DNA from: Rhodospirillales bacterium
GTDB lineage: Bacteria; Pseudomonadota; Alphaproteobacteria; Acetobacterales; Acetobacteraceae
Length of the DNA stretch: 32,418 bases
Assembly (NCBI GenBank): GCA_028866445.1
Contig: JAGWIE010000002.1
Location: forward strand, 1 to 32,418
Direction: 5' to 3'
Below the pieces are notes generated by a model. That model was given only the letters and a program-made list of their open reading frames with translations. It made no database searches and had not been told where the DNA came from. Below are positions 2,864-18,220 of the stretch, piece by piece. The stretch's first letter is position 1. The number at the start of each line of letters is the position of its first letter. A program made the position numbers and the translations under genes.

Positions 2864-2937
2864 GCGGGTATGATGTAATGGTAGCCTGCTAGCTTCCCAA
2901 GCTCGATGCGCGGGTTCGATTCCCGCTACCCGCTCCA
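2864..2937 (+). tRNA. tRNA-Gly (anticodon CCC)
   Basis: GCGGGTA acceptor arm pairs with TACCCGC; anticodon loop TTCCCAA; T-arm GCGGGTTCGATTCCCGC; encoded CCA at 2935-2937. Confidence 0.93.
2915..2930 (+). repeat. Putative left att core, within tRNA-Gly T-arm/acceptor
   Basis: TTCGATTCCCGCTACC identical to 18205-18220. Confidence 0.8.
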
Positions 2938-3064
2938 GTTTCCCATCCGGCGGTGCCCGCCGATGATTGAAAAAACCGTAGAAATCCGCTATTTTTGAGC
3001 AGTTATCGGTTGTCGATGACTGCCCTTGTTCGCCTGCAACCGTAGAAGATGGGGGCCTAATTTT

Positions 3065-3082
3065 GGGGCCTTGAAAGGCCCC
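3065..3082. repeat. Palindrome GGGGCCTTGAAAGGCCCC immediately upstream of int
   Basis: Perfect 8-bp arms with 2-nt centre; AATTTTGGGGC and GGGGCCTTGA portions recur near the right end (18125-18135, 18143-18152). Confidence 0.65.
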
Positions 3083-3103
3083 CACCTAATACGAGGCCCC
3101 CAG

Positions 3104-4300
3104 ATGCCACTGACTGATACAGCGATTCGTAATGCCAAGCCCAAGGATAAAGCATACAAGGTGGCCGACTCTCAGGGACTGTACCTTTTGGTCAATCCTG
3201 GTGGCAGTAAGCTTTGGCGGGTCAAATACCGCATTAACGGCACTGAGCGTAAGCTCTCGCTGGGGGCATACCCTGAAATCACCCTTGCCGAAGCCCGCAC
3301 CGCGCGCGATGCGGCGCGCAAACAGCTTGCCCACGCTATCGACCCCAACACCGCCAAACGCCAAGCCAGGATTGAGGCGAGCATTCGGGCAGGCAATACC
3401 TTTGCTAACGTGGCTGACGAGCTGATCGAGAAAAAGGGCCGTGAGGGGAGGGCCACTGCGACACTGGAGAAGCAACGCTGGCTATTGAAATTGCTTGGGC
3501 AGGATTTTGGAAAGAGGCCGGTGGCCGACATCACGCCCCAGGAACTGCTTCACGAGCTTAAAAAACACGAACGCCGGGGGCGGTTAGAAACAGCCAAGCA
3601 GCTCCGTGCCTTTGCCGGGCAGGTTTTCCGCTACGCGGCAGCGACGGCCCGGGCGGAGCGCGATCCAGCACAGCTTCTACAAGGGGCGCTGATTTCCCCG
3701 ACCGTCAAACATTTCGCCGCGATTACCGACACAGCACAGTTTGGCGCGCTCTTGCGGGCGCTAGACGATTACCAGGGCGACCCCGCCGTGATGTATGCCT
3801 TGAAGCTTACGCCGCATGTCTTTCAGCGCCCTGGCGAGATACGCCAGATGGAATGGGCTGAGGTCGACTTCGACAAGGCTGTCTGGACGATACCCGAGAT
3901 CAAGATGAAGATGCGCCAGCCTCATGTGGTTCCACTATCAAAGCAAGCCCTGGAGATTCTCCGTGAGGTGCGAGGCTTGTCCGGGGCGGGGCGTTTTGTG
4001 TTCCCGTCCGTGCGCACAAGAGTCAGACCAATAAGTGACAATACGGTCAACGCGGCACTGCGGCGCATGGGCTATTCCAAGGATCAGATGACGGCCCACG
4101 GCTTTCGCACCTCAGCGTCATCCCTACTCAACGAATCAGGAAAATGGAATCCTGACGCGATTGAACGCGCCCTGGCCCATATGGTGCCGGGCATTATCCG
4201 GCGTATTTACAACCAATCCGCCTATTGGGCTGAGCGGGTAGAGATGGCGCAGTGGTGGAGCAATTACTTGGACGAGTTGCGAAAGGGAGGAAATATCTGA
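3104..4300 (+). CDS. Tyrosine-type site-specific integrase (P4-like, DUF4102 arm-binding N-terminus)
   Basis: MPLTDTAIRNAKPKDKAYKVADSQGLYLLVNPGGSKLWRVKYR N-terminus; catalytic-domain segments FQRPGEIRQMEWAEVD, TAHGFRTSASSLLNE, terminal tyrosine IRRIYNQSAYWAER. Start moved from ORF-track 3026 to ATG 3104. Confidence 0.93.
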   Translation: MPLTDTAIRNAKPKDKAYKVADSQGLYLLVNPGGSKLWRVKYRINGTERKLSLGAYPEITLAEARTARDAARKQLAHAIDPNTAKRQARIEASIRAGNTFANVADELIEKKGREGRATATLEKQRWLLKLLGQDFGKRPVADITPQELLHELKKHERRGRLETAKQLRAFAGQVFRYAAATARAERDPAQLLQGALISPTVKHFAAITDTAQFGALLRALDDYQGDPAVMYALKLTPHVFQRPGEIRQMEWAEVDFDKAVWTIPEIKMKMRQPHVVPLSKQALEILREVRGLSGAGRFVFPSVRTRVRPISDNTVNAALRRMGYSKDQMTAHGFRTSASSLLNESGKWNPDAIERALAHMVPGIIRRIYNQSAYWAERVEMAQWWSNYLDELRKGGNI

Positions 4301-5289
4301 TGGCACCAAGGCAATTAACCCAGAAAAAAGCGGCTCAGGAACCAAAAGCAAGCAGAGCACAATATCTAAAAATAGAAGAAAAATCTAAAAAATCAACAAG
4401 CTTAACGCCAGAGCAAGCTGAGGAAAAAGAGTTTCCTTTAAGGCAGATTGCAGCGAACTTCATTTCCGAAGACGAAGATGATGGATTGAAGCGGCTGGAC
4501 GCCTTTACCGAGAAAATTTACAATCAACATTCAAATAAATACAATTCATTAATGGCTAGAGCCGCTTGGCTTTGCGGACTTTTTGTTGTTTTAATTGTTG
4601 TGGCAACAATTATTGACCGATTAAGCACAAAGTATGGCGACCCTCTTTATCTCGTTGCCATTTTTTCGTTTTTTGGGATGCTCTTCTGCTTTTGGTCATG
4701 GCAGACTTTTCAATATGGGCGTCTTTCCGCAAAAAAATCGCAGGAAGCCTTTTATACTGAAGGTGATAAAGATATCGCCCTCAAATTAGACAGCCTTTTT
4801 AAGCACTTACAAAGCGGAAAAACACCAAAGGCTTACTTCAAGAAAAATGGATCAGACAGGTATCTTGACCAGAAGTATTTCTACGGGGGCTTGCGTTTCT
4901 TACTCTTGTCACCAGAAAGAACATATAGAGAACTGGTGTTTCAGCCGGTAAGACCATGGCCATATTCTCGTGAAATTTTCATGAGGGTGAACATAAAAAC
5001 CCTAATCCAAAGGACAAATGCTAGGCCCGACAAGCGGCGAAAATCAGACCAATACGATTACAAGCGGCTGCTGCTCCTTATAATCGAACATCCGGCCCTT
5101 AAACAGATAATTCGGGGCGAACCTCGTGACGCGGGCAGACTCATAAAACTGATAACCAGCTTGAGCGATGCCGACGCTGATGAGCAAGATACGGATTTTG
5201 ACGGTTTCACACCTGAACAGTCGCAGATGTATAAGTTTGTTGGAGAAGTTTTGGCTGCTATAGAAAAAAATCGGTCGCTTCCCGGTTGA
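4300..5289 (+). CDS. Two-TM membrane protein of unknown function, translationally coupled to integrase
   Basis: ATG overlaps integrase stop (TGATG at 4298-4302); charged N-terminus, two adjacent hydrophobic segments (WLCGLFVVLIVVATII, LYLVAIFSFFGMLFCFWSW), long charged C-terminal domain. Confidence 0.75.
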   Translation: MAPRQLTQKKAAQEPKASRAQYLKIEEKSKKSTSLTPEQAEEKEFPLRQIAANFISEDEDDGLKRLDAFTEKIYNQHSNKYNSLMARAAWLCGLFVVLIVVATIIDRLSTKYGDPLYLVAIFSFFGMLFCFWSWQTFQYGRLSAKKSQEAFYTEGDKDIALKLDSLFKHLQSGKTPKAYFKKNGSDRYLDQKYFYGGLRFLLLSPERTYRELVFQPVRPWPYSREIFMRVNIKTLIQRTNARPDKRRKSDQYDYKRLLLLIIEHPALKQIIRGEPRDAGRLIKLITSLSDADADEQDTDFDGFTPEQSQMYKFVGEVLAAIEKNRSLPG

Positions 5290-5466
5290 TTATTCAACTG
5301 CGCCTTCACCGGAATTTGTTTTAAATCAAAGCATTGCTTCCGGGCAACTCTACCGGAATTTGCATAGCGTCTGGATTGGAGTGGTCCTTTTAATATCGGA
5401 CGACGTGCTGCCATCCGTGTGCAATTTGAGAGGCCTTCCAACGAACATTAGGAGGCACTCTCAAAC

Positions 5467-5640
5467 ATGGAACCGATTGCTATCTCCGTTAACGCCGCCG
5501 CCAAAGCTCTCGGGGTTGGACGTAGCTCCATTTACGTCTTGCTTAAATCTGGCAGGCTTGAGGCCATTAAGATAGGCCGCCGGACGCTGCTGACGACAGC
5601 CTCAATCAAACGGTTGACGCAAGCTCGCCCCCCATCATGA
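5467..5640 (+). CDS. Excisionase-family small HTH DNA-binding protein (57 aa)
   Basis: ATG 5467 with upstream AGGAGG (5450-5455) reads MEPIAISVNAAAKALGVGRSSIYVLLKSGRLEAIKIGRRTLLTTASIKRLTQARPPS*; HTH_17/Xis-like pattern. Below the ORF-track size limit. Confidence 0.83.
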   Translation: MEPIAISVNAAAKALGVGRSSIYVLLKSGRLEAIKIGRRTLLTTASIKRLTQARPPS

Positions 5641-5744
5641 AGCGCAGGCTTGTGGCCCAGCCTTTAAAATAGGCGGGCCGCTGCGCCTTTTTCCTTCTCG
5701 TGCCCCCCTGCATTCGCGCCCCCGTGCGCGGAAAGGATACCTCT

Positions 5745-6203
5745 ATGCCCATTTCCCAGAGCATTATCTCCCGTTTACACGCCCGGTTCCTCCCCGAGGA
5801 TGTTGCCAGTTTCACCGTGCGGATGACGCCACGCATCGCCCGTTTCGTCATGCCGATCATCAAGAAGCTGATCCGCGATGACAAGGTCGGCGAGACCTAC
5901 CGGTTTGCCGTGGCGTTCTGGCATCGCTGGGAGGTGCCGCCCCTCAATGTTTACCTGGGAACGGCCTCCCTCTGCCGCATCGACGGTCCTTCAACCTCTG
6001 ATGAAAGAGGTTACCGCCCAGCGGGTGGCTTGGTTGAGACACTAGGCCTGACTGCACACCTCTTACCCGACGAGGCTCACAACCTTGATAACCGCATCAA
6101 GGCGGCCATCGAAACGGCCATCCGAAACTGGGCAGACGAGACGAACCGCGGTCATTGGAAAACCCTCCCCCAACATCAGTACCGGGGGGCAGAAGATGCG
6201 TAA
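5745..6203 (+). CDS. Hypothetical IME protein
   Basis: ORF in frame from ATG 5745 (MPISQSIISRLHARFLPEDVASFTVRMTPRIARFVMP...); no family recognised. Confidence 0.55.
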   Translation: MPISQSIISRLHARFLPEDVASFTVRMTPRIARFVMPIIKKLIRDDKVGETYRFAVAFWHRWEVPPLNVYLGTASLCRIDGPSTSDERGYRPAGGLVETLGLTAHLLPDEAHNLDNRIKAAIETAIRNWADETNRGHWKTLPQHQYRGAEDA

Positions 6204-6407
6204 GCCCCGGAAGTTTTGTCTCTACGAGAGCCCCGATGCTGCGCATCGGGGCAAGGAAAGAAGAACACACCACACGCACTGGCCTGCGGCTGAGCTTTGC
6301 GGTTTTTCGCGGGTGCGATCCGGGTGCGTTTGTGGCGCTTGTTCCAAACCCGGCACCATTCCAGGCATGGCCGAGGATACGCGCCGGATGCGGGGGGAAG
6401 ACGGACC
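6204..6407. other. Candidate oriT / regulatory region upstream of the mobilization operon
   Basis: Perfect 9-bp hairpin GCCCCGATG-CTGCG-CATCGGGGC (6230-6252) and direct repeats CGGGTGCG (6310-6317, 6321-6328) in the non-coding gap directly before the mob genes. Confidence 0.4.
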
Positions 6408-6770
6408 ATGAAGTTCGTTCAGCACTCCGTGCGCATCCCCTTGGCGCTCGATAAAGCCCTGCGGCATGCTGCCCAAAGCCGCCAGATGACCCCCTATGCT
6501 CTGCTGCAACAATGTGTGCGGGCCGGGCTGGCTTCCCTTTCCGGCGAGCAGGCGGTGCCGCAATTCGCCGCCGAAATCGCCCAGGAGGTTGGAACATTGG
6601 CTGCCCGCTTGGCCCATGTCGAGCGCCTGACTGAGCGCGCGCTCTTCGTCGCCTGCGCGGCCTACGTGTACGCCCGCGCCGCCGCCGGTCCCCACGCCAA
6701 CGAAACCTCCCTCACCGCTGAAATCAATGCTGCCTTTGCGCGGCAGCTCAACCTTGCCGGAGATGTGTAA
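6408..6770 (+). CDS. Small putative mobilization accessory protein (ribbon-helix-helix/TraJ-like)
   Basis: MKFVQHSVRIPLALDKALRHAAQSRQMTPYALLQQCVRAGL resembles RHH N-terminus; first gene of mob operon, stop overlaps coupling protein start (TAATG). Confidence 0.6.
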   Translation: MKFVQHSVRIPLALDKALRHAAQSRQMTPYALLQQCVRAGLASLSGEQAVPQFAAEIAQEVGTLAARLAHVERLTERALFVACAAYVYARAAAGPHANETSLTAEINAAFARQLNLAGDV

Positions 6771-8620
6771 TGGCCAATGTGCAAAACCGCCGCGCCCACG
6801 CCGACGCTCTGCGCGCGCGAGAGCGCGCCAACGGCCAGGCCCAGTTCCGCTTCGCCGCCAGGGCGCTCGCCGTTTGCGCGGCAGGTGGCGCATTGCTTTT
6901 TGGCTGGGCAACATCCAGCGCCGGACAGGTCAAGGAGGTGGGCGAATACACGCTTGCCAGTTTCATGGCCTACATGCTGAAAGTCACGCCCGCCGACCCG
7001 GTGATGAATTTCACCTACCAAGGCCAAGTCTATCGAATTGGCGTCAAGGAGTTGGCCTGCATCCGGGGCTTCGGCGGTGACGCCATCGCTTTCGCCGAAC
7101 AGCTCGCCTTGGGTGGCATAATGGGGCTTGGGGTCGGCGGTGTCTGTTTATGGATGACCGCCGATCACCGCCGCCGAAAGCAAGAAGAACTGCTGGCCGA
7201 CCGCGTCATTACCGGCACACAGGTTGTCGGCGAAGACAATCTTGCACGCCTGACCGCGCCGGAAAGCCATGCCTACCCCCTACGGTTCGGCAGCGTCCCT
7301 GTCCCGTATGCCCTGGAGCCAAGGCACATTGCCATCCTGGGGACCACAGGCACGGGAAAAACCACGGCTTTGCGCCAGAACCTGGACGCTATTGAAGCAC
7401 GGGGCGACACCGCCTTGATCTATGACACATCGGGGGAGTTCATCGCTCATTATTATAACCCCGAACGCGGAGACATCATCCTCAATCCCTTCGACCAGCG
7501 TGGGGCGTTCTGGAATCCATTTGATGAAATTTCTCATCCCGCCGATGCCGACCGCATCGCCCGTTATCTCATCGCCGAGACGGGCGAGGAGGACCGAGAC
7601 ATCTGGTTGGACACTTCCCGGATGCTTGTCGCCAACATGCTGCGTACCCTCTGGCAGGAGGGGCGGCGGTCGCCACGGGATTTACTGGACGCCTTGCAGT
7701 CCATGCCCCGTGAAAAGCTGGAACGCTGGCTGGCTCATACATCCTCGGCCCGCATCTTCGCTCAAGGGGCCGACCGTGCCACCGGCAGCGTGCTGTTCAT
7801 GCTGTCGATGGCCGTCAATCTGCTTATGTTTTTGCGCGCCGCGCCACGGGAGGGCGAGACGGGCTTTTCGTTTGCCCGCTTCTTCAAGACGGTTGACGAG
7901 CGGCCAGGCCCAAAGCCCTGGATATTTGTGCCACGGAAGGAGGATTATTTTGAGGCCATGAAGCCTCTCATGGCGCTCTGGCTGGAATGCGCCGCCAGTG
8001 GCGTCTTGGGGCTTGCGCCCGCTGCCGCGCGGCGCGTGTGGTTCATTCTCGATGAGTTGGCCGACATGCCGCGCGTCGATAACCTTGCGCGGCTTCTGCC
8101 CGAAGGCCGGAAATTTGGCGCATCCGTCATCCTCACCTTCCAGACCATCGACCTGATGCGGGAGCGTTATGGCCGTGAGGGGGCGGAGGCATTGCTCGGG
8201 TGCTGCAACACCAAGCTATTCCTGCAACTGGTTGACCAGGCCAGCCGGGAGTGGGCATCCGCAACCATCGGCATAGCCGATGTGGAAATTTCCACCATCG
8301 CCGACACGCTCGACCCGAAAACAGGTAAACCCCAACAGACATTGAGTACCGCGCGTGAGACGCGCCCCGCCATATTGGAAAGTGAGCTGCGCCTGCCCAA
8401 GCATACGGCTTACCTATTATTACCGGACGGCTTGCCCGTTGCCAGAGTCAAGCTGACGGATGACCATATCCATGCCCGAGGCCCGGCCCGCCATCTGGGC
8501 TTTGTACCGGCGGATATTGCCGAAACGCTCTGGGGTGGATTGCAAGCAGTCAAGGCGGATAAGAACAAGGAAAGCGTGGCCCCTGGCCCGAGCCAGCCTC
8601 TTGGACCGGGGCCGGTGTGA
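6770..8620 (+). CDS. Type IV coupling protein (TraD/VirD4/TrwB-like)
   Basis: N-terminal TM segments; Walker A ILGTTGTGKTTALRQNLDAI; Walker B-like RRVWFILDELADMPRVDNLARLLPEGRKFGASVILTFQ. Confidence 0.9.
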   Translation: MANVQNRRAHADALRARERANGQAQFRFAARALAVCAAGGALLFGWATSSAGQVKEVGEYTLASFMAYMLKVTPADPVMNFTYQGQVYRIGVKELACIRGFGGDAIAFAEQLALGGIMGLGVGGVCLWMTADHRRRKQEELLADRVITGTQVVGEDNLARLTAPESHAYPLRFGSVPVPYALEPRHIAILGTTGTGKTTALRQNLDAIEARGDTALIYDTSGEFIAHYYNPERGDIILNPFDQRGAFWNPFDEISHPADADRIARYLIAETGEEDRDIWLDTSRMLVANMLRTLWQEGRRSPRDLLDALQSMPREKLERWLAHTSSARIFAQGADRATGSVLFMLSMAVNLLMFLRAAPREGETGFSFARFFKTVDERPGPKPWIFVPRKEDYFEAMKPLMALWLECAASGVLGLAPAAARRVWFILDELADMPRVDNLARLLPEGRKFGASVILTFQTIDLMRERYGREGAEALLGCCNTKLFLQLVDQASREWASATIGIADVEISTIADTLDPKTGKPQQTLSTARETRPAILESELRLPKHTAYLLLPDGLPVARVKLTDDHIHARGPARHLGFVPADIAETLWGGLQAVKADKNKESVAPGPSQPLGPGPV

Positions 8621-11388
8621 TGGTTGCCACCATATCGGCGCTGACCAGCGCCGCCCAAGCCGCCAGCTATTATGAGGCCGACGATTACTATGCCGAAGGA
8701 GGTTTGGCCCCATCGGAATGGCTAGGCAAAGGTGCCCAGGCGCTGAAACTGGCCGGGGCAGTGGATCGTCAGCAATTCGCCGCGCTGCTGGCGGGGCATG
8801 TCGCCGGTCAGGAGTTGGGTACGATGCGTGACGGCGAATGGGAGCACCGGCCAGGCTGGGACATCACGTTCAGCGCGCCAAAATCCGTATCGGTCATGGC
8901 GGAGGTGGCAGGCGACCGCCGCCTTATCGCGGCACATGAACGGGCGGCGCGAACCGCTCTGGACCTAGCGGAAATACATTTGTCAGCCACGCGCATCCGC
9001 GAGGATGGTGCTGTCCGGCGTGCGGCGACCGGCAATCTGGTTATCGCTTCCTTCCGGCACGGCACCAGCCGGGCGCTCGATCCGCAGCTTCACACGCATA
9101 ATGTCATCCTGAACATGAGCAGGGGCGAAGCCGGGCAATGGCGCAGCCTGGAGCCTCGGGCCTTCTATCAGATGCAAAAGCAGATGGGTGCCATCTACCG
9201 CCAAGAGCTGGCTGCCGGGGTGCAGAGCCTGGGCTACGCGATTGAGCGTGGCAAGGATTCGACCTTTGAGATTGCCGGTATCGGCGACACCACGCTGGAG
9301 GCCTTTAGCCAGCGTAGCGCCGCCATCGAGGCGCGCCTTGCCGAGCGAGGCAAAAGCCGTGAACAGGCCAGCGCCGCCGAGAAACAGATCGCGGCGTTGG
9401 ATACGCGGCTGGCCAAGGAGGCGGTGCCCCATGCCGAGCTGATCGGCGATTGGCGGGAAACCGCTGATACAGCCGGATGGGATGAACAGGCGCGGCGCGG
9501 GTTGATCGCCAAAGCCGAGGCACGGGCGGAATCGGCTGCCCATGGCACCGGCCATGAATTTGCCCGTGAACTGGCGGCTGACTGCGCCGTGGCGCAAGGC
9601 GCGGCCATGCTGGGCGAGCGGCAGTCTGTGTTCTCCACCACGGCCCTGCATGAGGCGGCGGGCAGGTTTGGCATGGGCCGCGTTGGGCATGAAGACATTG
9701 CCGCCGCTATTGCCCGCGCGGAAAAGACCGGCGCGCTGGAAACGCGCAAGTGCCTTGACCGGCGCGGCGTGGTGTTCGAGGGCTTCACCACCGCCGCCAA
9801 TATCGCCAACGAGACGGCACTGCTGCGGCTGGAGGAACAAGGCCGCCAGCAGGTGGAACCGATCTTGTCCCCCATCGCCGCCGCCCGAGCGGTTGCCGAG
9901 GCCGAGCGGCGCAGCGCCCAGCAGGGCCATGGCTGGACCGATGAGCAGTGCGCGGCCACGGCGCAAATTCTTGGCAGCCGTAATCGCGTCATCGGGTTGC
10001 AGGGCACGGCGGGCACCGCCAAGACCTCCACCGTGCTGGCGACCATCGCGCGTGAGGCCGAGGCGCGGGGCATTCAGGTGGTAGCACTCGCCCCCACGGC
10101 ATCGGCGGCGCAGGTGTTGGGTGAGGCGCTGGATAGCTGCGCCGACACGCTGGCCCGGCATTTATTGGCGTCAGGCCGCCCCTCACCCAAGGAGCGGCTT
10201 TGGATTGTCGATGAAGCCTCGCTGATCTCAGCGGCGGATGCCGCCAAGCTGTTGCGTCTGGCCGAATCCCACCGGGCGCGGGTGCTGTTGGTGGGTGACA
10301 CGGCGCAGCTTGGGTCCGTTCAAGCGGGTGCCGCCTTTGCCCAGCTTCAGGGGGCGGGCATGGAAACCGCGCGCCTCACTCACATCCTGCGCCAGACCAA
10401 CGAACACGCCAAGGCGGCGGTGGAGGCCAGCTTAGCAGGCGATGCCAGGAAAGCCCTGGCTGCCCTGGATGGTGGCGGTGGCCACGTCATCGAATGCGGC
10501 ACCCGCGAGGCCCGCTTCGCCCGGATCGCCCAGGACTACGCCAAGTTGGACTCCAAAGAGAGGCGCAAGGCTTTGGTGGTTGAGCCATCCCGAGAGGGGC
10601 GTGACGCGCTGACTAAGGAAATCCGCCAACGTCTGGCGGAAACCGGCGCACTGCATGGTCCGGTCATTGAGGCCACGAGGCTTGTGCCGCGCGACCTGAC
10701 GCGCGCCGAGGCCAAGGACGCACACAGCTACGCCATCGGAGATACCATCCGCTTTGCCAAGGATTATGCTGACAAGGGTATGTCAAAAGCGCAGGCCTAT
10801 CGCGTGGTGGGCATCGACACCAAAAAGGCCGCCGTGACGCTGGCCGATCAGAAAGGTCGGGCCATCGACTGGCGGTTGCGGCAATGGGGCGCGTCGCACG
10901 CCCAGGCTTTCACCACTGAGGCGATTGAGCTGCGGGCTGGGGACCAGGTGCAGTTTACCCGCAATGACCGTGCTTTGGGCCGGATCAACGGGCAGCAGGG
11001 GGAGATCATCGCCGTTGAGCCTACCACGCGGGAGGCCAAAGTCCGGGTTGCCCGGGGCAAGATCGAGACGCTGGCGCTGGATAGCCCCCGCGACCAGCAT
11101 ATCGCCCATTCTTATGTCGCCACCGCCTTTGCCGCCCAGGGGCGCACGGCCGAGCGGACCTTAATCCACGCCGACAGCGCCGCCACCAACTTGTTGGACC
11201 AGAAGAGCTTCTACGTGGGGCTTTCCCGCGCCAAGGAGGCCACCGTCATTTACACCAATGACCGGGCCAAGCTGGTTGCCGCTATCGCCGAGCGCACAGG
11301 CGAGAAGCAGACTGCGCTTGGAGCGGCGAACATCGCCATTAAGGAGGTGGAAAGAACGGCTGCCCGGCCTGGGAGCATGGTACTTTAA
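8620..11388 (+). CDS. MobF-family conjugative relaxase with RecD-like helicase domain (TrwC/TraA type)
   Basis: TISALTSAAQAASYYEADDYYAEGG N-terminus; HUH-type three-histidine motif HTHNVILN; helicase segments LQGTAGTAKTSTVLATIA, LWIVDEASLIS, HSYVATAFAAQGRTAERTLIH, FYVGLSRAKE. Confidence 0.93.
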   Translation: MVATISALTSAAQAASYYEADDYYAEGGLAPSEWLGKGAQALKLAGAVDRQQFAALLAGHVAGQELGTMRDGEWEHRPGWDITFSAPKSVSVMAEVAGDRRLIAAHERAARTALDLAEIHLSATRIREDGAVRRAATGNLVIASFRHGTSRALDPQLHTHNVILNMSRGEAGQWRSLEPRAFYQMQKQMGAIYRQELAAGVQSLGYAIERGKDSTFEIAGIGDTTLEAFSQRSAAIEARLAERGKSREQASAAEKQIAALDTRLAKEAVPHAELIGDWRETADTAGWDEQARRGLIAKAEARAESAAHGTGHEFARELAADCAVAQGAAMLGERQSVFSTTALHEAAGRFGMGRVGHEDIAAAIARAEKTGALETRKCLDRRGVVFEGFTTAANIANETALLRLEEQGRQQVEPILSPIAAARAVAEAERRSAQQGHGWTDEQCAATAQILGSRNRVIGLQGTAGTAKTSTVLATIAREAEARGIQVVALAPTASAAQVLGEALDSCADTLARHLLASGRPSPKERLWIVDEASLISAADAAKLLRLAESHRARVLLVGDTAQLGSVQAGAAFAQLQGAGMETARLTHILRQTNEHAKAAVEASLAGDARKALAALDGGGGHVIECGTREARFARIAQDYAKLDSKERRKALVVEPSREGRDALTKEIRQRLAETGALHGPVIEATRLVPRDLTRAEAKDAHSYAIGDTIRFAKDYADKGMSKAQAYRVVGIDTKKAAVTLADQKGRAIDWRLRQWGASHAQAFTTEAIELRAGDQVQFTRNDRALGRINGQQGEIIAVEPTTREAKVRVARGKIETLALDSPRDQHIAHSYVATAFAAQGRTAERTLIHADSAATNLLDQKSFYVGLSRAKEATVIYTNDRAKLVAAIAERTGEKQTALGAANIAIKEVERTAARPGSMVL

Positions 11389-11517
11389 CTCTCAAACCCC
11401 TTGGTTTCGACGCCCCAATCACGCTTGCGCGAGTGACGGCAATCCCCATTGACCAGAATCCCTGACCTGGCTAACGGAATGTAACCACATATGTAACTAG
11501 CTGGTAGGCGCACAAGC

Positions 11518-13059
11518 ATGGCAAATGGTTCCGGGGCATCCGTAATATGCATTGGTGCCGGACCAGCCGGGTTAACTGCTGCCTACCTACTAAGCCGTAG
11601 TGGTGTTCGCGTTACGGTCCTGGAGCAAGACCCAACCTATGTTGGCGGCATATCCCGTACCGAGACCTATAAGGGGTTTGCCTTCGACATTGGCGGGCAT
11701 CGTTTTTTCTCAAAGTCACAAGAAGTTGAACGGCTCTGGGACGAGATTCTCGACGAAGGTTTTTTGACCCGCCCGCGCAAATCCAGAATCTATTACCGGG
11801 ACAAGTTGTTTGATTATCCCCTGCGGGCTTTCGACGCGTTGTCCAAGCTCGGCGTGGCCGAGGCGACACGATGCATTTTTTCCTATGCCAAGGCCCGCCT
11901 ACATCCTGTCGCCCAGCCGCGGAATTTCGAGGAATGGGTGACAAACCAATTCGGCAGGCGCCTGTTCCAGATATTCTTCCGTACTTATACCGAGAAAGTC
12001 TGGGGTATGGCCTGCACGGAAATCTCTGCTGACTGGGCTGCTCAGAGAATCAAGGGCCTGTCTCTCTTCAAGGCCATCTGGCATGCTTTGATGCCACAAA
12101 AACGGAACACATCCCGTAAGGCAGTCATCAAGACCCTAATTAACAGTTTCCGCTATCCCAGGCGCGGGCCGGGAATGTTGTGGGAAGCCGCTGCCGTGAA
12201 GATTGAACGGCAAGGCGGCAGCATCATCAAAGGTATGAAGGTTATCGAAATCACCCGCGAGGATAACGAGAATTGGAAGGTGACGGCGCAGGATCAGAGC
12301 GGCACCAATCATGAGTTCCACGCACGGCATGTGATCTCCACCATGCCCATGCGGGAATTGTCGCATGCTTTGCGGCCCGGTCTGCCCATTGCCGCGCAGC
12401 AAGCCGCAGATGCGCTGAAATACCGTGACTTCCTCACTGTTGCGCTGATTCTCAAAGACAGGAATGTTTTTGATGACAACTGGATTTACATCCACGACCC
12501 AGGTGTGAAGGTGGGACGAATCCAGAATTTTAAATCCTGGTCACCTGAAATGACGCCCGATCAGGCATTGAACTGCTACGGGTTGGAGTATTTTTGCTTC
12601 GAGGGTGACGGAATCTGGTCCGCGCCAGATGAGGAACTCGTGGCCCTAGGCACCAGGGAGCTGGTCAAGCTCGGTCTTGCTTCGGCGGAGGATATTGTGG
12701 AAGGTGTCGTGGTTCGCCAGCCCAAGGCGTATCCCGTCTATGATGACCATTACCTGGACAACGTGGATAAGGTCCGGCGTGCCATGGAACTTGATTATCC
12801 CAATTTGTGCCTCATAGGCCGCAATGGCATGCACAAATATAATAACCAAGACCATGCCATGATGACGGCGATGCTTGCCGTGGAGAATATCCTCGCAGGC
12901 CGTCAGATATATGATTTGTGGAAGGTCAACCAGGACGCAGAGTATCACGAAGAGCAGGACGGCGCGAAGCAGGCGAATTATCGCCGGGTCTATCAGCAAG
13001 TGAGTCAAGCATCTCCGCCTGTTCCACTGCCTGCAAGGCCGGTGCTTGGCGATAGTTAG
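11518..13059 (+). CDS. NAD(P)/FAD-dependent oxidoreductase, UDP-galactopyranose mutase-like / amine oxidase family
   Basis: VICIGAGPAGLTAAYLLSRSGVRVTVLEQDPTYVGGISRTETYKGFAFDIGGHRFFSKS: FAD-binding GxGxxG motif and GGHRFFSK typical of polysaccharide-cluster flavoproteins. Confidence 0.82.
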   Translation: MANGSGASVICIGAGPAGLTAAYLLSRSGVRVTVLEQDPTYVGGISRTETYKGFAFDIGGHRFFSKSQEVERLWDEILDEGFLTRPRKSRIYYRDKLFDYPLRAFDALSKLGVAEATRCIFSYAKARLHPVAQPRNFEEWVTNQFGRRLFQIFFRTYTEKVWGMACTEISADWAAQRIKGLSLFKAIWHALMPQKRNTSRKAVIKTLINSFRYPRRGPGMLWEAAAVKIERQGGSIIKGMKVIEITREDNENWKVTAQDQSGTNHEFHARHVISTMPMRELSHALRPGLPIAAQQAADALKYRDFLTVALILKDRNVFDDNWIYIHDPGVKVGRIQNFKSWSPEMTPDQALNCYGLEYFCFEGDGIWSAPDEELVALGTRELVKLGLASAEDIVEGVVVRQPKAYPVYDDHYLDNVDKVRRAMELDYPNLCLIGRNGMHKYNNQDHAMMTAMLAVENILAGRQIYDLWKVNQDAEYHEEQDGAKQANYRRVYQQVSQASPPVPLPARPVLGDS

Positions 13060-13071
13060 GGGTAAGGCTGA

Positions 13072-14109
13072 ATGACGACATGCCTGATTACTGGTGGAGC
13101 AGGCTTTTTCGGAAAAATCCTGAAGCAACGTGCTCTAGCGCGGGGTTTTCAATGCGTCAGCGTGGACCTTGAGGCGGATGAGGACACACACCCTCGGTTA
13201 ATTTCCATACAGGGCGATATTCGTGATTCAGCCCTCATGGAAAAACTTTTTGCGGAACACCGCTTCGAGACAGTCTATCACTGCGCAGCAATTCTCGCGC
13301 ACACAAAGGTTCAGCGGGATTACCTATGGTCGTGCAATGTTGATGGAACAAGGGTTATTGCCGGCCTAGCCGAGAAATATCAGGTTCGCCATGCGGTCTT
13401 TCTGTCATCAAATTGCCTTTGGGCAAAGAATTTCGGCAGGCCAGTTCGGGAGAATGACGCCCCGGAACCTGTGGAGATTTATGGTAGGTCGAAATGGGAG
13501 GGAGAAAAGATATTTCAAAGCTACGGCAATAGCTTCCCAACGGCAATCATACGCTGCCCAACTATCATGGATGAGGGGCGTCTCGGATTATTGTCCATTT
13601 TATTTGAATTCATCGATGAAGGCCGAAAGCTGTGGCTGGTGGGGGACGGCTCTAACAGATACCAGTTTATCTATGCGCAAGACCTTGCATCGGCGTGCAT
13701 AATGGCAACGGAAAAGAAGGCTGAGGGCGTTTTTAACATTGGGTCTGATGACGTTAAGTCGTTCCGTAAAGTCTATCAATACGTACTCGATCACGTGAAG
13801 ACGGGCGCAAGGTTAGCCCATTTGCCGAAGGGCCCTGCTCTATGGGGTATGCGCCTTGGACACGGGTTAGGGCTTTCGCCGCTCGGGCCATATCAATACA
13901 AGATGATCGCCGAGGATTTTCTGTTCGATACGTCAAAAATAAAAGATAAACTAGGTTGGCGTCCGACCCTGAATAATGAAGAGATGCTCTTGAAAGCTTA
14001 TGAATATTACCGCCGCAACAAACGAGACATTTTTTCAAGAAAGAATGTCTCTGCTCACAGGCAGGCGGCAAAAATGGGCATCATCCGGCTGTTGAAATGG
14101 GCTAGTTAG
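13072..14109 (+). CDS. NAD-dependent epimerase/dehydratase (extended SDR)
   Basis: CLITGGAGFFGKILKQRA nucleotide-binding motif, YHCAAILAHTKV, YGRSKWEGEK catalytic YxxxK. Confidence 0.9.
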   Translation: MTTCLITGGAGFFGKILKQRALARGFQCVSVDLEADEDTHPRLISIQGDIRDSALMEKLFAEHRFETVYHCAAILAHTKVQRDYLWSCNVDGTRVIAGLAEKYQVRHAVFLSSNCLWAKNFGRPVRENDAPEPVEIYGRSKWEGEKIFQSYGNSFPTAIIRCPTIMDEGRLGLLSILFEFIDEGRKLWLVGDGSNRYQFIYAQDLASACIMATEKKAEGVFNIGSDDVKSFRKVYQYVLDHVKTGARLAHLPKGPALWGMRLGHGLGLSPLGPYQYKMIAEDFLFDTSKIKDKLGWRPTLNNEEMLLKAYEYYRRNKRDIFSRKNVSAHRQAAKMGIIRLLKWAS

Positions 14110-14110
14110 G

Positions 14111-16075
14111 ATGGGAGTGTTTGCACTTATTAATAGATTACGGTTTCGTGAAATAAACGAGCGTACTTCCGGACAAGCAAAGGATACAGACCGGGCATTT
14201 CTTGTCGTTGGCCTCATGCTGATCGCAGCACTTTGGCTTGCGACACGCCAATATTTTGGAATAATAGCGGATTCACGCTTTTATACTGTTCAGGCTCTTA
14301 GCGCGCTTTTACCGAGCAGGTTCGCAAACGATCTCTATTTTCAATACGGTTCACAAGATCAGTTCACGATATTCACCAAGATTTATACCCCCTTCATTTC
14401 GGTTTTTGGCTTAGCATACGGCAATCTAATACCAACTCTTTTGGCCGAGTTCTTGTGGCTTTGCGGGGCAGCATTCCTTTTCCATTCCCTAACATGGAAC
14501 TTGAGAACCTCTTTTTCGGCCTTTGCATCTCTCATTATCCTGCCCGGCAGCTTCGTTTTTCTTTCCTATGGAGAACCATTTCTGACGCCGCGTCTGGTAA
14601 CAGAGGCGCTTATATTCGGGGCGCTTGGTTGTATGCTGCGCGGTTGGGTGCTGAATGCCTGCGCCATTTTTTTGGTTTCTGTTTTTGTTCATCCGCTGAT
14701 GACTCTTCCTGGCCTTTCGGTTTTTTTTCTTTACGAAACACTGAAGCGCCCATGGTTATTATCGGTGGCTTTAATTGGCATTTGTCTTGGGATTGGGCTG
14801 GCTATCCTGAATATCCAACCGTTTTCAAGACTCCTGGTCAGTTTCGATCCTATATGGCTTCATATAACTGAAGTGCGAGATGGTTTTGCATTCGTTTTAA
14901 AATGGACTTTTATATCCAAGATTCAGGCGTTGAACATTTTTTCCTTGGCGGGCCTGACGTTACTCTTCTTGAAAGGTCAAGAGCGGCTATTTTTGGCCCT
15001 GGCCATGATCGTGGCTTTTCTGGGCATTTTGGTTACATTCATTGGCGGCGATCTTCTGCACAATATTTTGATCGTCAACATTCAGGCTTGCCGCGCGCTG
15101 ATACTTCTAGCCGCAGTCACGAACCTATTTCTCGGAAAAATTTTAATATCTCCCGATGAAGATACACCTCGCGGTCAATCCCGTTTTGTTTTGTTGCTGA
15201 GCATCGCAGCACTCGCCTTATCTCGCTTTTTTGTGGATTATATTTTATTTGTCTTACCCCTCTGTAGTTTAGGCTTTGTATTGCTTGCTATCGAACGCAC
15301 GGCCTGCAAACCCGCATCGAAAATCGGGTACCTTTTAATTATCGTTTATCTGTCGGTTATCCTAGCTCTTACCCCAATTGCGCTAAGGGCTTCATTTGCA
15401 AATACACTGGCGATATCTTCTGGGATATGGCCCTGGCTGGCCTCTCTGTTCGTGAGCGCCTCTGCTTTGGCGGCGCTTTATATCCTGGGCCGATATCCCA
15501 CCAGGACGGTTCCCCGCTTTTTGGTTTATGGCAGCACCCTACTGCTGATAATTTCTATAACCAACTGGGACCAGCGCTCGCCATGGATAAAATTTGTCGA
15601 CAATGCCTCCCCTCCAGCGGATTTGGTCGCTGCTCTTCCTGCAAATGCGCCCATTTACTGGGAAGGGGATGTTACTGTCCCGTGGTTCCTTCTCAAACGA
15701 ACCAGTCAGCTTTCTTGCGGCCAGGGGACCGGTGTTATGTTTTTTCGTAATACGGCCATTGCCTATCAGGCGCGGTATCAAATTTTTGCCCGGCTTGGGG
15801 CGTTGGATTTTGGAAGGGATCAATTCTGCCCCGCGCCTAAGCTGTCCTCCCCGCCCGCCGTGGATTTAAAGAACCTAGCCTATGTCTGCCGTAATCAAAC
15901 AGGGCTTGGCGCCTTGGTCCTGACAACCCTAGCCCCGGATGCGCCGCACCATGTCTGGACCGCACCCGTACCCTTCCAATACACAAGGCAGGTCGATGGA
16001 AAGCCGGTGCAAGTTAAAACAAACAAATTCTACATCTACCGATGCAATGAGTTGCTGCATCTTCCTGCCTCATAG
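14111..16075 (+). CDS. Large polytopic membrane protein (paralogue 1), possible GT-C-like envelope enzyme
   Basis: 654 aa, many hydrophobic segments, C-terminal soluble domain with four Cys; strongly similar to adjacent ORF 16136-18064. Confidence 0.8.
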   Translation: MGVFALINRLRFREINERTSGQAKDTDRAFLVVGLMLIAALWLATRQYFGIIADSRFYTVQALSALLPSRFANDLYFQYGSQDQFTIFTKIYTPFISVFGLAYGNLIPTLLAEFLWLCGAAFLFHSLTWNLRTSFSAFASLIILPGSFVFLSYGEPFLTPRLVTEALIFGALGCMLRGWVLNACAIFLVSVFVHPLMTLPGLSVFFLYETLKRPWLLSVALIGICLGIGLAILNIQPFSRLLVSFDPIWLHITEVRDGFAFVLKWTFISKIQALNIFSLAGLTLLFLKGQERLFLALAMIVAFLGILVTFIGGDLLHNILIVNIQACRALILLAAVTNLFLGKILISPDEDTPRGQSRFVLLLSIAALALSRFFVDYILFVLPLCSLGFVLLAIERTACKPASKIGYLLIIVYLSVILALTPIALRASFANTLAISSGIWPWLASLFVSASALAALYILGRYPTRTVPRFLVYGSTLLLIISITNWDQRSPWIKFVDNASPPADLVAALPANAPIYWEGDVTVPWFLLKRTSQLSCGQGTGVMFFRNTAIAYQARYQIFARLGALDFGRDQFCPAPKLSSPPAVDLKNLAYVCRNQTGLGALVLTTLAPDAPHHVWTAPVPFQYTRQVDGKPVQVKTNKFYIYRCNELLHLPAS

Positions 16076-16135
16076 TGAGAGGCTTCTTCTCCCTCCGCTT
16101 ATGCAGAAAAAACCCCGATAAATGGGATCGACTCC

Positions 16136-18064
16136 ATGAATTCGTCTAACGTTCCAGCTTCCACGCAAAGTACCAACCGAACATTCCTTATCGTCAGCAC
16201 GATACTGATCGCGGTGCTCTGGTTGTCAACACGTCCCTATCAAGGGATCATTGACGATTCACGTTTCTATACTGTGCAGGCGTTGAACGCTCTCCTGCCC
16301 GGGAGATTTTCGAACGATCTTTATTTTCAATATGGTTCGCAAGATCAGTTTACGATCTTTACCAAGATCTATGCACCGTTCATTTCAGCTTTTGGTTTGT
16401 CATCGGGCAATCTTATTCTTACCCTATTATCCCAAGTTTTTGCTGCCAGTGGGGCAATTTTTTTTTCGTATACCCTGATTAGGGACTGGAGAATTTTATT
16501 TATTTCTCTAGCAGCACTTATTCTTCTGCCGAATTCTACCTTTTTTATGTCCTATGGCGAGCCATTTCTAACCCCCCGTTTAATGGCTGAGGCTCTTACG
16601 TTTTGGGGGCTGGGTTGCATGCTGAATAGGTGGATATTCAGTGCAGTAGCTATTTTTATTGTCTCCACTTTAATTCATCCTTTGATGACAATACCGGGTA
16701 TTGCGGTTTTTTTCTTTTACGAAGCCATCAAAAAGCCATTCCTTTGGATAGGAGCAATTCTTGGGGCTGTCATTTTCCTGGGCTTAGCTTTCTTGGGCAT
16801 GCAACCATTTGCCAAATTGTTAATGTGTTTTGATCCAGCTTGGCTTCACACCACAAAAATACGTAGCTTTTATTGCTTTGTTACAGGGTGGAATCTGCAA
16901 CTATGGACGCTTGCGCTCAATAGCGCTTCCACAAGCCTATTCGCCATGCTTTTTTTTAAGGGTCGTGAGCGCCAAATTCTCATCCTTGCTTTAACCGTCA
17001 TGATTTTTGGTACGCTTGTTACTTATATTGGCGGCGATCTGTTCCGTAATGTTCTTATTGTAGATATTCAGCTTTGGCGTTCGATGTGGCTTTTAAACGC
17101 CTTGACGAGCCTGTTTTTAGGTAAAATTCTAATGTCTTCTGGAAACGACGGGTCTAAAGGGACAACCTATTTTATCCTATGTGTGCTTGTTATCATCCTC
17201 GCGCTGTCGGCTTTCTTCGAAGCGTTCATTTTGTTTGTAACTCCCCTCTGTCTTTTGGGAATTTGGGTTTATATAGTCGAAAATCGAACCAAAGGCCAAA
17301 TTTCTCGAATAGGAAAGCGCCTGATTACAGTATATCTATCTGTAATTTTCGCCTTTGCCATTATCGCGTTGAAGGTCTCTCTAGACAATTTGTCTACAAC
17401 TCATTTCGCGCTTCTGCATCACTTGATCGGTTTATTGGCCATCATCACTGCGGGGGGACTTCTTTTTGCGTTGTGCCGTCGATCTTCAGTTACGGTGCCC
17501 AGGTTTGTGGTTTATGCAAGCGCATTTTTGCTTCTGACCTCCGTAGCTAATTGGGATCAGAGAACGCCTTGGACAAAGTTTGTCGATACAACAAGTACTC
17601 CACCGGCAGATTTGGTTGCTGTGCTTCCCCAAAATGGCGCCATTTATTGGGATGGCGACGTTACAGCCCCATGGTTCCTTCTCAAACGAGCCAGCCAGTT
17701 TTCCTGTGATCAGGGAACAGGCGTTCTGTTCTCCCACGGAACGGCTATTGCCTATCAGACGCGGTATCAAATTTTTGCACGACTTGGGACGCTGGATTTC
17801 GAAGAAAATCAATTTTGTCCGATGCCGAAATTCTCTTCCGAGCCCGCAGTAACCCTTAAGAATTTGACCTATGTATGCAAAAGCCAGCCTGGCCTTGGCG
17901 CGTTGGTGCTGACAACCCCCGCGTCAGATGCTCCAGCCCGCATCTGGACTTCCCCTGTAGCTTTTCAGGCTATCCGTCAGATCAACGGGAGACAGACGCG
18001 ACTTAAGACAGACAAATTTTATATTTACCGATGCGATGAATTGTCTCATCTTCCCGCATCATGA
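16136..18064 (+). CDS. Large polytopic membrane protein (paralogue 2)
   Basis: 642 aa; shares DSRFYTVQAL.ALLP.RF.NDLYFQYGSQDQFTIFTKIY and near-identical C-terminal domain with 14111-16075. Confidence 0.8.
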   Translation: MNSSNVPASTQSTNRTFLIVSTILIAVLWLSTRPYQGIIDDSRFYTVQALNALLPGRFSNDLYFQYGSQDQFTIFTKIYAPFISAFGLSSGNLILTLLSQVFAASGAIFFSYTLIRDWRILFISLAALILLPNSTFFMSYGEPFLTPRLMAEALTFWGLGCMLNRWIFSAVAIFIVSTLIHPLMTIPGIAVFFFYEAIKKPFLWIGAILGAVIFLGLAFLGMQPFAKLLMCFDPAWLHTTKIRSFYCFVTGWNLQLWTLALNSASTSLFAMLFFKGRERQILILALTVMIFGTLVTYIGGDLFRNVLIVDIQLWRSMWLLNALTSLFLGKILMSSGNDGSKGTTYFILCVLVIILALSAFFEAFILFVTPLCLLGIWVYIVENRTKGQISRIGKRLITVYLSVIFAFAIIALKVSLDNLSTTHFALLHHLIGLLAIITAGGLLFALCRRSSVTVPRFVVYASAFLLLTSVANWDQRTPWTKFVDTTSTPPADLVAVLPQNGAIYWDGDVTAPWFLLKRASQFSCDQGTGVLFSHGTAIAYQTRYQIFARLGTLDFEENQFCPMPKFSSEPAVTLKNLTYVCKSQPGLGALVLTTPASDAPARIWTSPVAFQAIRQINGRQTRLKTDKFYIYRCDELSHLPAS

Positions 18065-18204
18065 CTATGTTTCCCTGCCCGCATGAAAGGCCGGTCAAAG
18101 TCAAACAAAATATGTAGTAAATTGAATTTTGGGGCTTTCTTGGGGGCCTTGATAGAAACCGAATTTTAAAAAACAATGATTTTCCAAACGGCTATGGATT
18201 ATGA

Positions 18205-18220
18205 TTCGATTCCCGCTACC
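18205..18220 (+). repeat. Putative right att core
   Basis: TTCGATTCCCGCTACC identical to tRNA-Gly 2915-2930. Confidence 0.78.

Follow-up and report, generated by a model that had tools for sequence, protein, structure and literature searches.

Tandem, diverged GT-C-like membrane proteins on a mobilizable island are putative glycosyltransferases of a lipid-linked, possibly furanose, sugar

We find that two adjacent genes in a 32,418-nt stretch of a Rhodospirillales genome (contig JAGWIE010000002.1, hereafter the window) encode paralogous membrane proteins, A and B, of an unannotated family that is carried here as cargo of a mobile island. The genomic context of the family, namely a flavoenzyme, GtrA, one GtrA fusion and an SDR, points to a role in glycan modification, and we consider it likely that A and B are GT-C-like membrane glycosyltransferases that use a polyprenyl-phosphate sugar donor, probably a furanose, and serve two acceptors. 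Tentatively, we also put forward a more specific version: the family would be new among glycosyltransferases and would attach a hexofuranose (e.g. galactofuranose) to surface glycans outside the cytoplasmic membrane. Its polyprenyl-phosphate-linked furanose donor would be supplied by a dedicated UGM-like mutase and flipped by a GtrA, which some bacteria would have within the same protein.

A and B (Table 1) are intact reading frames on a common strand, separated by 60 nt, and BLASTP aligns them with 361 of 640 positions identical (56%, 702 bits) and a single gap column. This bears out the original prediction of tandem, diverged paralogues, and the three motif blocks that it named are all found in both proteins; the predicted size range of 640–654 aa holds for A, whereas B has 642 aa and not 640. 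The divergence is old, as had also been proposed, since nucleotide identity is 60.5% and pS lies at a saturated 0.70–0.77 across all segments tested, with a dN of 0.36 and a nominal dN/dS of ~0.13. Recent gene conversion between the copies can thereby be ruled out. At the protein level identity is 77% in the N-terminal block, 70% in the C-terminal block and 40% in the region 346–480, and because pS is equally saturated throughout, this contrast reflects protein-level constraint.

Table 1. Features of the island and of its integration site (positions in the window)
Feature	Position	Strand	Remarks
tRNA-Gly(CCC)	2864..2937	+	integration site
attL	2915..2930	+	TTCGATTCCCGCTACC, 16 bp, 3' part of tRNA
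Tyrosine integrase of island	3026..4300	+	
TrwB/TraD-type coupling protein	6770..8620	+	
MobF/TrwC-type relaxase-helicase	8617..11388	+	
P0003	11518..13059	+	513 aa; UGM-like flavoenzyme, NCBIfam type PRK07208
P0004	13072..14109	+	345 aa; extended SDR epimerase/dehydratase, TGGAGFFG and YGRSK motifs
Protein A (P0001)	14111..16075	+	654 aa, intact ORF; putative GT-C-like membrane glycosyltransferase
Protein B (P0002)	16136..18064	+	642 aa, intact ORF; tandem paralogue of A
attR	18205..18220	+	exact 16-bp direct repeat of attL

Hydropathy averaged over ten family members, combined with the positive-inside rule, predicts 13 TM helices with the N-terminus inside, provided that 85–103 is a peripheral helix, in keeping with the earlier description of polytopic membrane proteins. 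In this predicted topology Lys and Arg make up 23.2% of the cytoplasmic and 7.7% of the extracytoplasmic loops, a bias matched by 4 of 1716 loop partitions, and the C-terminal domain of protein A (486–654) is predicted to be extracytoplasmic. Fourteen residues are invariant in 30 sequences (D54, Y58, D74, Q82, E155, R161, H194, P195, W265, Q325, R328, W517, W525 and C593), and 12 of these are predicted to lie in extracytoplasmic loops or in the C-terminal domain, with H194-P195 in a predicted helix. GT-C enzymes have 7–13 TM helices together with extracytoplasmic domains, and the loop that follows TM1, the first on the extracytoplasmic side, holds their acidic catalytic residue. The predicted 13 helices fall within this range. 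The Asp behind the first helix (D54 of A, D41 of B), which had been singled out for its GT-C-like position, is invariant in 30/30 family members and predicted to be extracytoplasmic, and is a putative catalytic residue. The residue layout is in this way as expected for GT-C enzymes, and the hint fits with the genomic context.

Several results weigh against this reading. No GT-C profile was matched when Pfam and NCBIfam were searched with 10 family members, and hhalign to the PMT_2 proteins of the genus scored no better than NuoL/M/N controls. AlphaFold2 models, one of the whole protein A and one of the C-terminal domain alone, reached a pLDDT of only 39.6 and 47.7, because the alignments had three rows, which is too poor to judge the fold. 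For these reasons we describe A and B as proteins that would work like GT-C enzymes rather than as proven members.

A and B are the last two genes of a four-gene, same-strand cluster, in which P0003 is followed after 12 nt by P0004 and after a further 1 nt by A. The closest solved relatives of P0003 are eukaryotic-type UDP-galactopyranose mutases (UGM) such as that of Aspergillus fumigatus (E = 3e-25). When residues were mapped with a published UGM contact table (PMC3624792), 11 of the 15 listed FAD, diphosphate and sugar contacts examined were retained (H63, Y104, F158, W167, R182, Y317, R327, R447, Y453, N457 and Q458), including the His loop, the phosphate-binding Arg pair (R182, R327) and the FAD contacts. 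Unlike UGM, P0003 has replacements at F106, Q107, N163 and N207, and it scores 34.3 bits against the NCBIfam UGM model TIGR00031, far under the cut-off of 303.75, which is why we term it UGM-like only and which also counts against our preferred reading. P0003 matches Amino_oxidase/NAD_binding_8, and no match to the DprE1-type FAD domain (FAD_binding_4) was found in it. Most simply, P0003 can be read as a mutase that contracts the ring of a sugar phosphate.

The same type of flavoenzyme recurs beside the family elsewhere. In a sample of 29 family loci, several of them from one genus and thus not fully independent, a flavoenzyme gene lies next to that of the family in 20. These are the window, L003 (whose flavoenzyme is 68% identical to P0003), L017, L019, L020, L021, L022 and 13 of the last 20 loci, in which flavoenzyme, GtrA and SDR were assigned with home-made profiles and which, counted by genus, have the flavoenzyme in seven genera and lack it in two. 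By comparison, just 6 out of 142 genomes from the class have a flavoenzyme of the P0003 type. The nine loci without an adjacent flavoenzyme argue against our reading, as does a Vitreoscilla relative found among cobalamin genes. GtrA adjoins the family gene in 9 of the 29 loci, the usual order being flavoenzyme, GtrA and family protein, and in L170 (7600–9954, +) GtrA (PF04138, 9.1e-18) is fused in frame to the family protein to give 784 aa. The closest relative of the pair is encoded at L159, beside a gene 62% identical to P0004; here the SDR is present and the flavoenzyme absent, the reverse of most loci, which have the flavoenzyme and no SDR.

Flavoenzymes of this type also sit among glycan genes away from the family: one on a Novosphingobium plasmid lies beside GtrA and a polytopic protein, and one in Methylomagnum lies beside a GT2 and a PMT_2 protein. 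The polytopic neighbour on the Novosphingobium plasmid (P0009) was rejected as a member of the A/B family, as were the polytopic neighbours in L061 and L065. In L061 (10491–14698, +) another flavoenzyme of this kind is followed by two adjacent, visibly similar polytopic proteins, both bearing a D-x-x-S-Y motif and belonging to a separate unnamed family; the two-transferase arrangement may have arisen there independently.

Relatives of A and B turned up in a further 56 genomes or plasmids, which range from Alphaproteobacteria to Planctomycetota. Of 298 genomes from a single alphaproteobacterial family, 51 carry relatives, and others occur in a Planctomycetota MAG (L003), several alphaproteobacterial families, another proteobacterial class (L020) and a single plasmid, Vitreoscilla pVF1; matches in G623 and G552 (E ~1e-3) were left out as too weak. 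The pVF1 relative (L007, 14950–16791, +) lies within a cobalamin-biosynthesis cluster, with no glycan genes adjacent. No family member matched Pfam, NCBIfam or PDB sequences, A and B had no match in PHROGs, and no relatives were found in viral contigs and phages or in the 36 other same-genus genomes searched. As to whether relatives always occur as pairs, they usually do not: no tandem pair was found in the 51 relative-bearing genomes of the one family or among the other relatives. Where a genome has two or three family copies these are on separate contigs or distant, and a close double match in G916 is a broken gene, its two hits being to different stretches of a single query. A 30-member tree joins A and B as sisters with a support of 1.0 and places L159 next to them.

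The pair is carried by a 15.3 kb integrative mobilizable element in tRNA-Gly(CCC) (window 2915–18220), with the order tRNA, integrase, TrwB-like coupling protein, MobF relaxase and right-hand cargo. It has an integrase, tRNA att repeats and a relaxase, and its attR sits two bases before the end of an hrpB-like helicase gene. The empty site is seen in four same-genus genomes, G008, G005, G001 and G007 (L025, L026, L027 and L043), in which the left flank continues through the tRNA into the helicase gene. No T4SS genes were recognised on the island. The original prediction had overlooked this element, the genes clustered with the pair, and the recurrent link of the family to a flavoenzyme and GtrA. 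GC3 is 0.49 in A and 0.45 in B, compared with 0.75 in the relaxase and 0.75–0.82 in hrpB and GroEL of the flanks, a difference suggestive of separate origins for the cargo and the element backbone. Promoter and terminator scans did no better than shuffles, and a search for anti-phage defence with PADLOC gave only a generic FAD match. Directly after the integrase (4252–5289, +) lies an unannotated protein with a hydrophobic mid-segment and weak, below-cut-off Pfam matches. In the sister genome G003, a stretch beside the same hrpB gene (L028, 3258–3350) is 80% identical to the start of the island integrase gene, so that the tRNA site may serve other islands too.

We suggest the following mechanism. 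The SDR (P0004) and the flavoenzyme (P0003) would work in the cytoplasm to give an activated sugar, probably a furanose, and would between them set which sugar it is and the form of its ring. Polyprenyl phosphate would be loaded with this sugar by a host GT2 enzyme, and a GtrA-type flippase of the host would move the lipid-linked sugar to the periplasm, where A and B would pass it to a surface glycan. The catalytic base would probably be D54 in A and D41 in B, and the two copies would act on different acceptor positions. The island itself has no GT2 or GtrA gene, which speaks against this scheme; the host genome encodes GtrA and GT2-GtrA genes, the latter on contig C245, and as it is a 78% complete MAG, absences from it mean little. 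The original prediction offered distinct substrates or a heterodimer as reasons for keeping both copies. We prefer two acceptor positions, since single-copy relatives are the rule; A and B may alternatively form a heterodimer.

The nearest characterised parallel is the pentofuranose three-component system of Citrobacter youngae O1/O2, with PPPRS, a MATE flippase, the GT-C enzyme GT136 (ORF12) and an SDR epimerase (PMC11127046). GT136, whose closest relative by sequence is ArnT, needs D31, E34, H106 and R349 for activity in cells, and the SDR decides between Ribf and Xylf (PMC11127046). This system and the A/B cluster both feature a membrane transferase, putative in the case of A and B, that has an extracytoplasmic C-terminal domain and, immediately behind helix 1, an Asp and a Tyr; they also share an SDR epimerase in the cluster, a predicted lipid-linked furanose donor and a serotype-changing logic. 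The A/B cluster differs in having a UGM-like flavoenzyme in place of the phosphoribosyl-polyprenyl synthase, and relatives of A and B have GtrA rather than a MATE flippase. A and B have no detectable similarity to PMT_2-type GT-C enzymes, and they are likened to GT136 by its description. The Gtr systems that modify Shigella and Salmonella O antigens consist of GtrA, GtrB and a serotype-specific Gtr enzyme of the GT-C type (PMC11127046), and they share with the relatives of A and B the GtrA partner, in one case fused, and with the island the mobile-element cargo and a polytopic protein at the putative last step. Unlike them, the island is without GtrA and GtrB, adds a flavoenzyme and an SDR, and has two tandem paralogues of the putative transferase.

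The same genes could be read as making a pyranose. A and B would still be GT-C-like transferases, but the flavoenzyme would be an oxidase that together with the SDR forms a two-step epimerase of a nucleotide- or lipid-linked sugar, following the logic of DprE1/DprE2 with other folds. The flavoenzyme and SDR genes do adjoin in the window, and P0003 has lost Q107 and N163, the uracil contacts of UGM, so that its substrate may be something other than a UDP-sugar bound in the usual orientation. However, P0003 retains the Arg pair, the His loop and the C-terminal motif of UGM, and at most loci the flavoenzyme occurs with no SDR, whereas L159 shows the opposite, an SDR with no flavoenzyme; we regard a pyranose as unlikely. 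It is also rather improbable that A and B are not transferases and instead act in a glycan pathway as carriers or as polymerase/ligase-type (Wzy/WaaL-like) membrane proteins. Such a role would agree with their polytopic nature, their glycan gene context and the lack of a profile link to GT-C, but GtrA, as neighbour or fusion partner, already provides the flippase function, and the invariant Asp after TM1, along with the acidic, Arg and Gln residues of the extracytoplasmic loops, suits a GT-C enzyme better.

That the duplication is meaningless, with one copy decaying, we find hardly credible. Homologues are indeed normally single copy, and at two near-invariant positions protein A has Q47 in place of P and I331 in place of W, but relaxed selection, the other sign named in the original prediction, is seen in neither copy. 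Both frames are intact, A and B retain every family-wide invariant residue as well as 36/45 and 38/45 of the columns conserved outside the pair, and nonsynonymous divergence is far under the saturated synonymous divergence. A Tajima relative-rate chi2 of at most 1.6 with eight outgroups likewise gives neither copy an excess of change, and both are under constraint.

In conclusion, our analysis offers a functional hypothesis, with testable residues, for a widespread membrane-protein family that is unnamed in the libraries searched, and proposes a conserved gene module of a flavoenzyme, GtrA, a membrane transferase and at times an SDR. It also suggests a role for PRK07208-type flavoenzymes, which are still hypothetical proteins in NCBIfam. 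If the furanose reading is true, the cluster would be a counterpart, placed on a mobile island, of the pentofuranose three-component systems described in 2024, and acquisition of the island could alter the cell surface, and perhaps phage binding, in one step.
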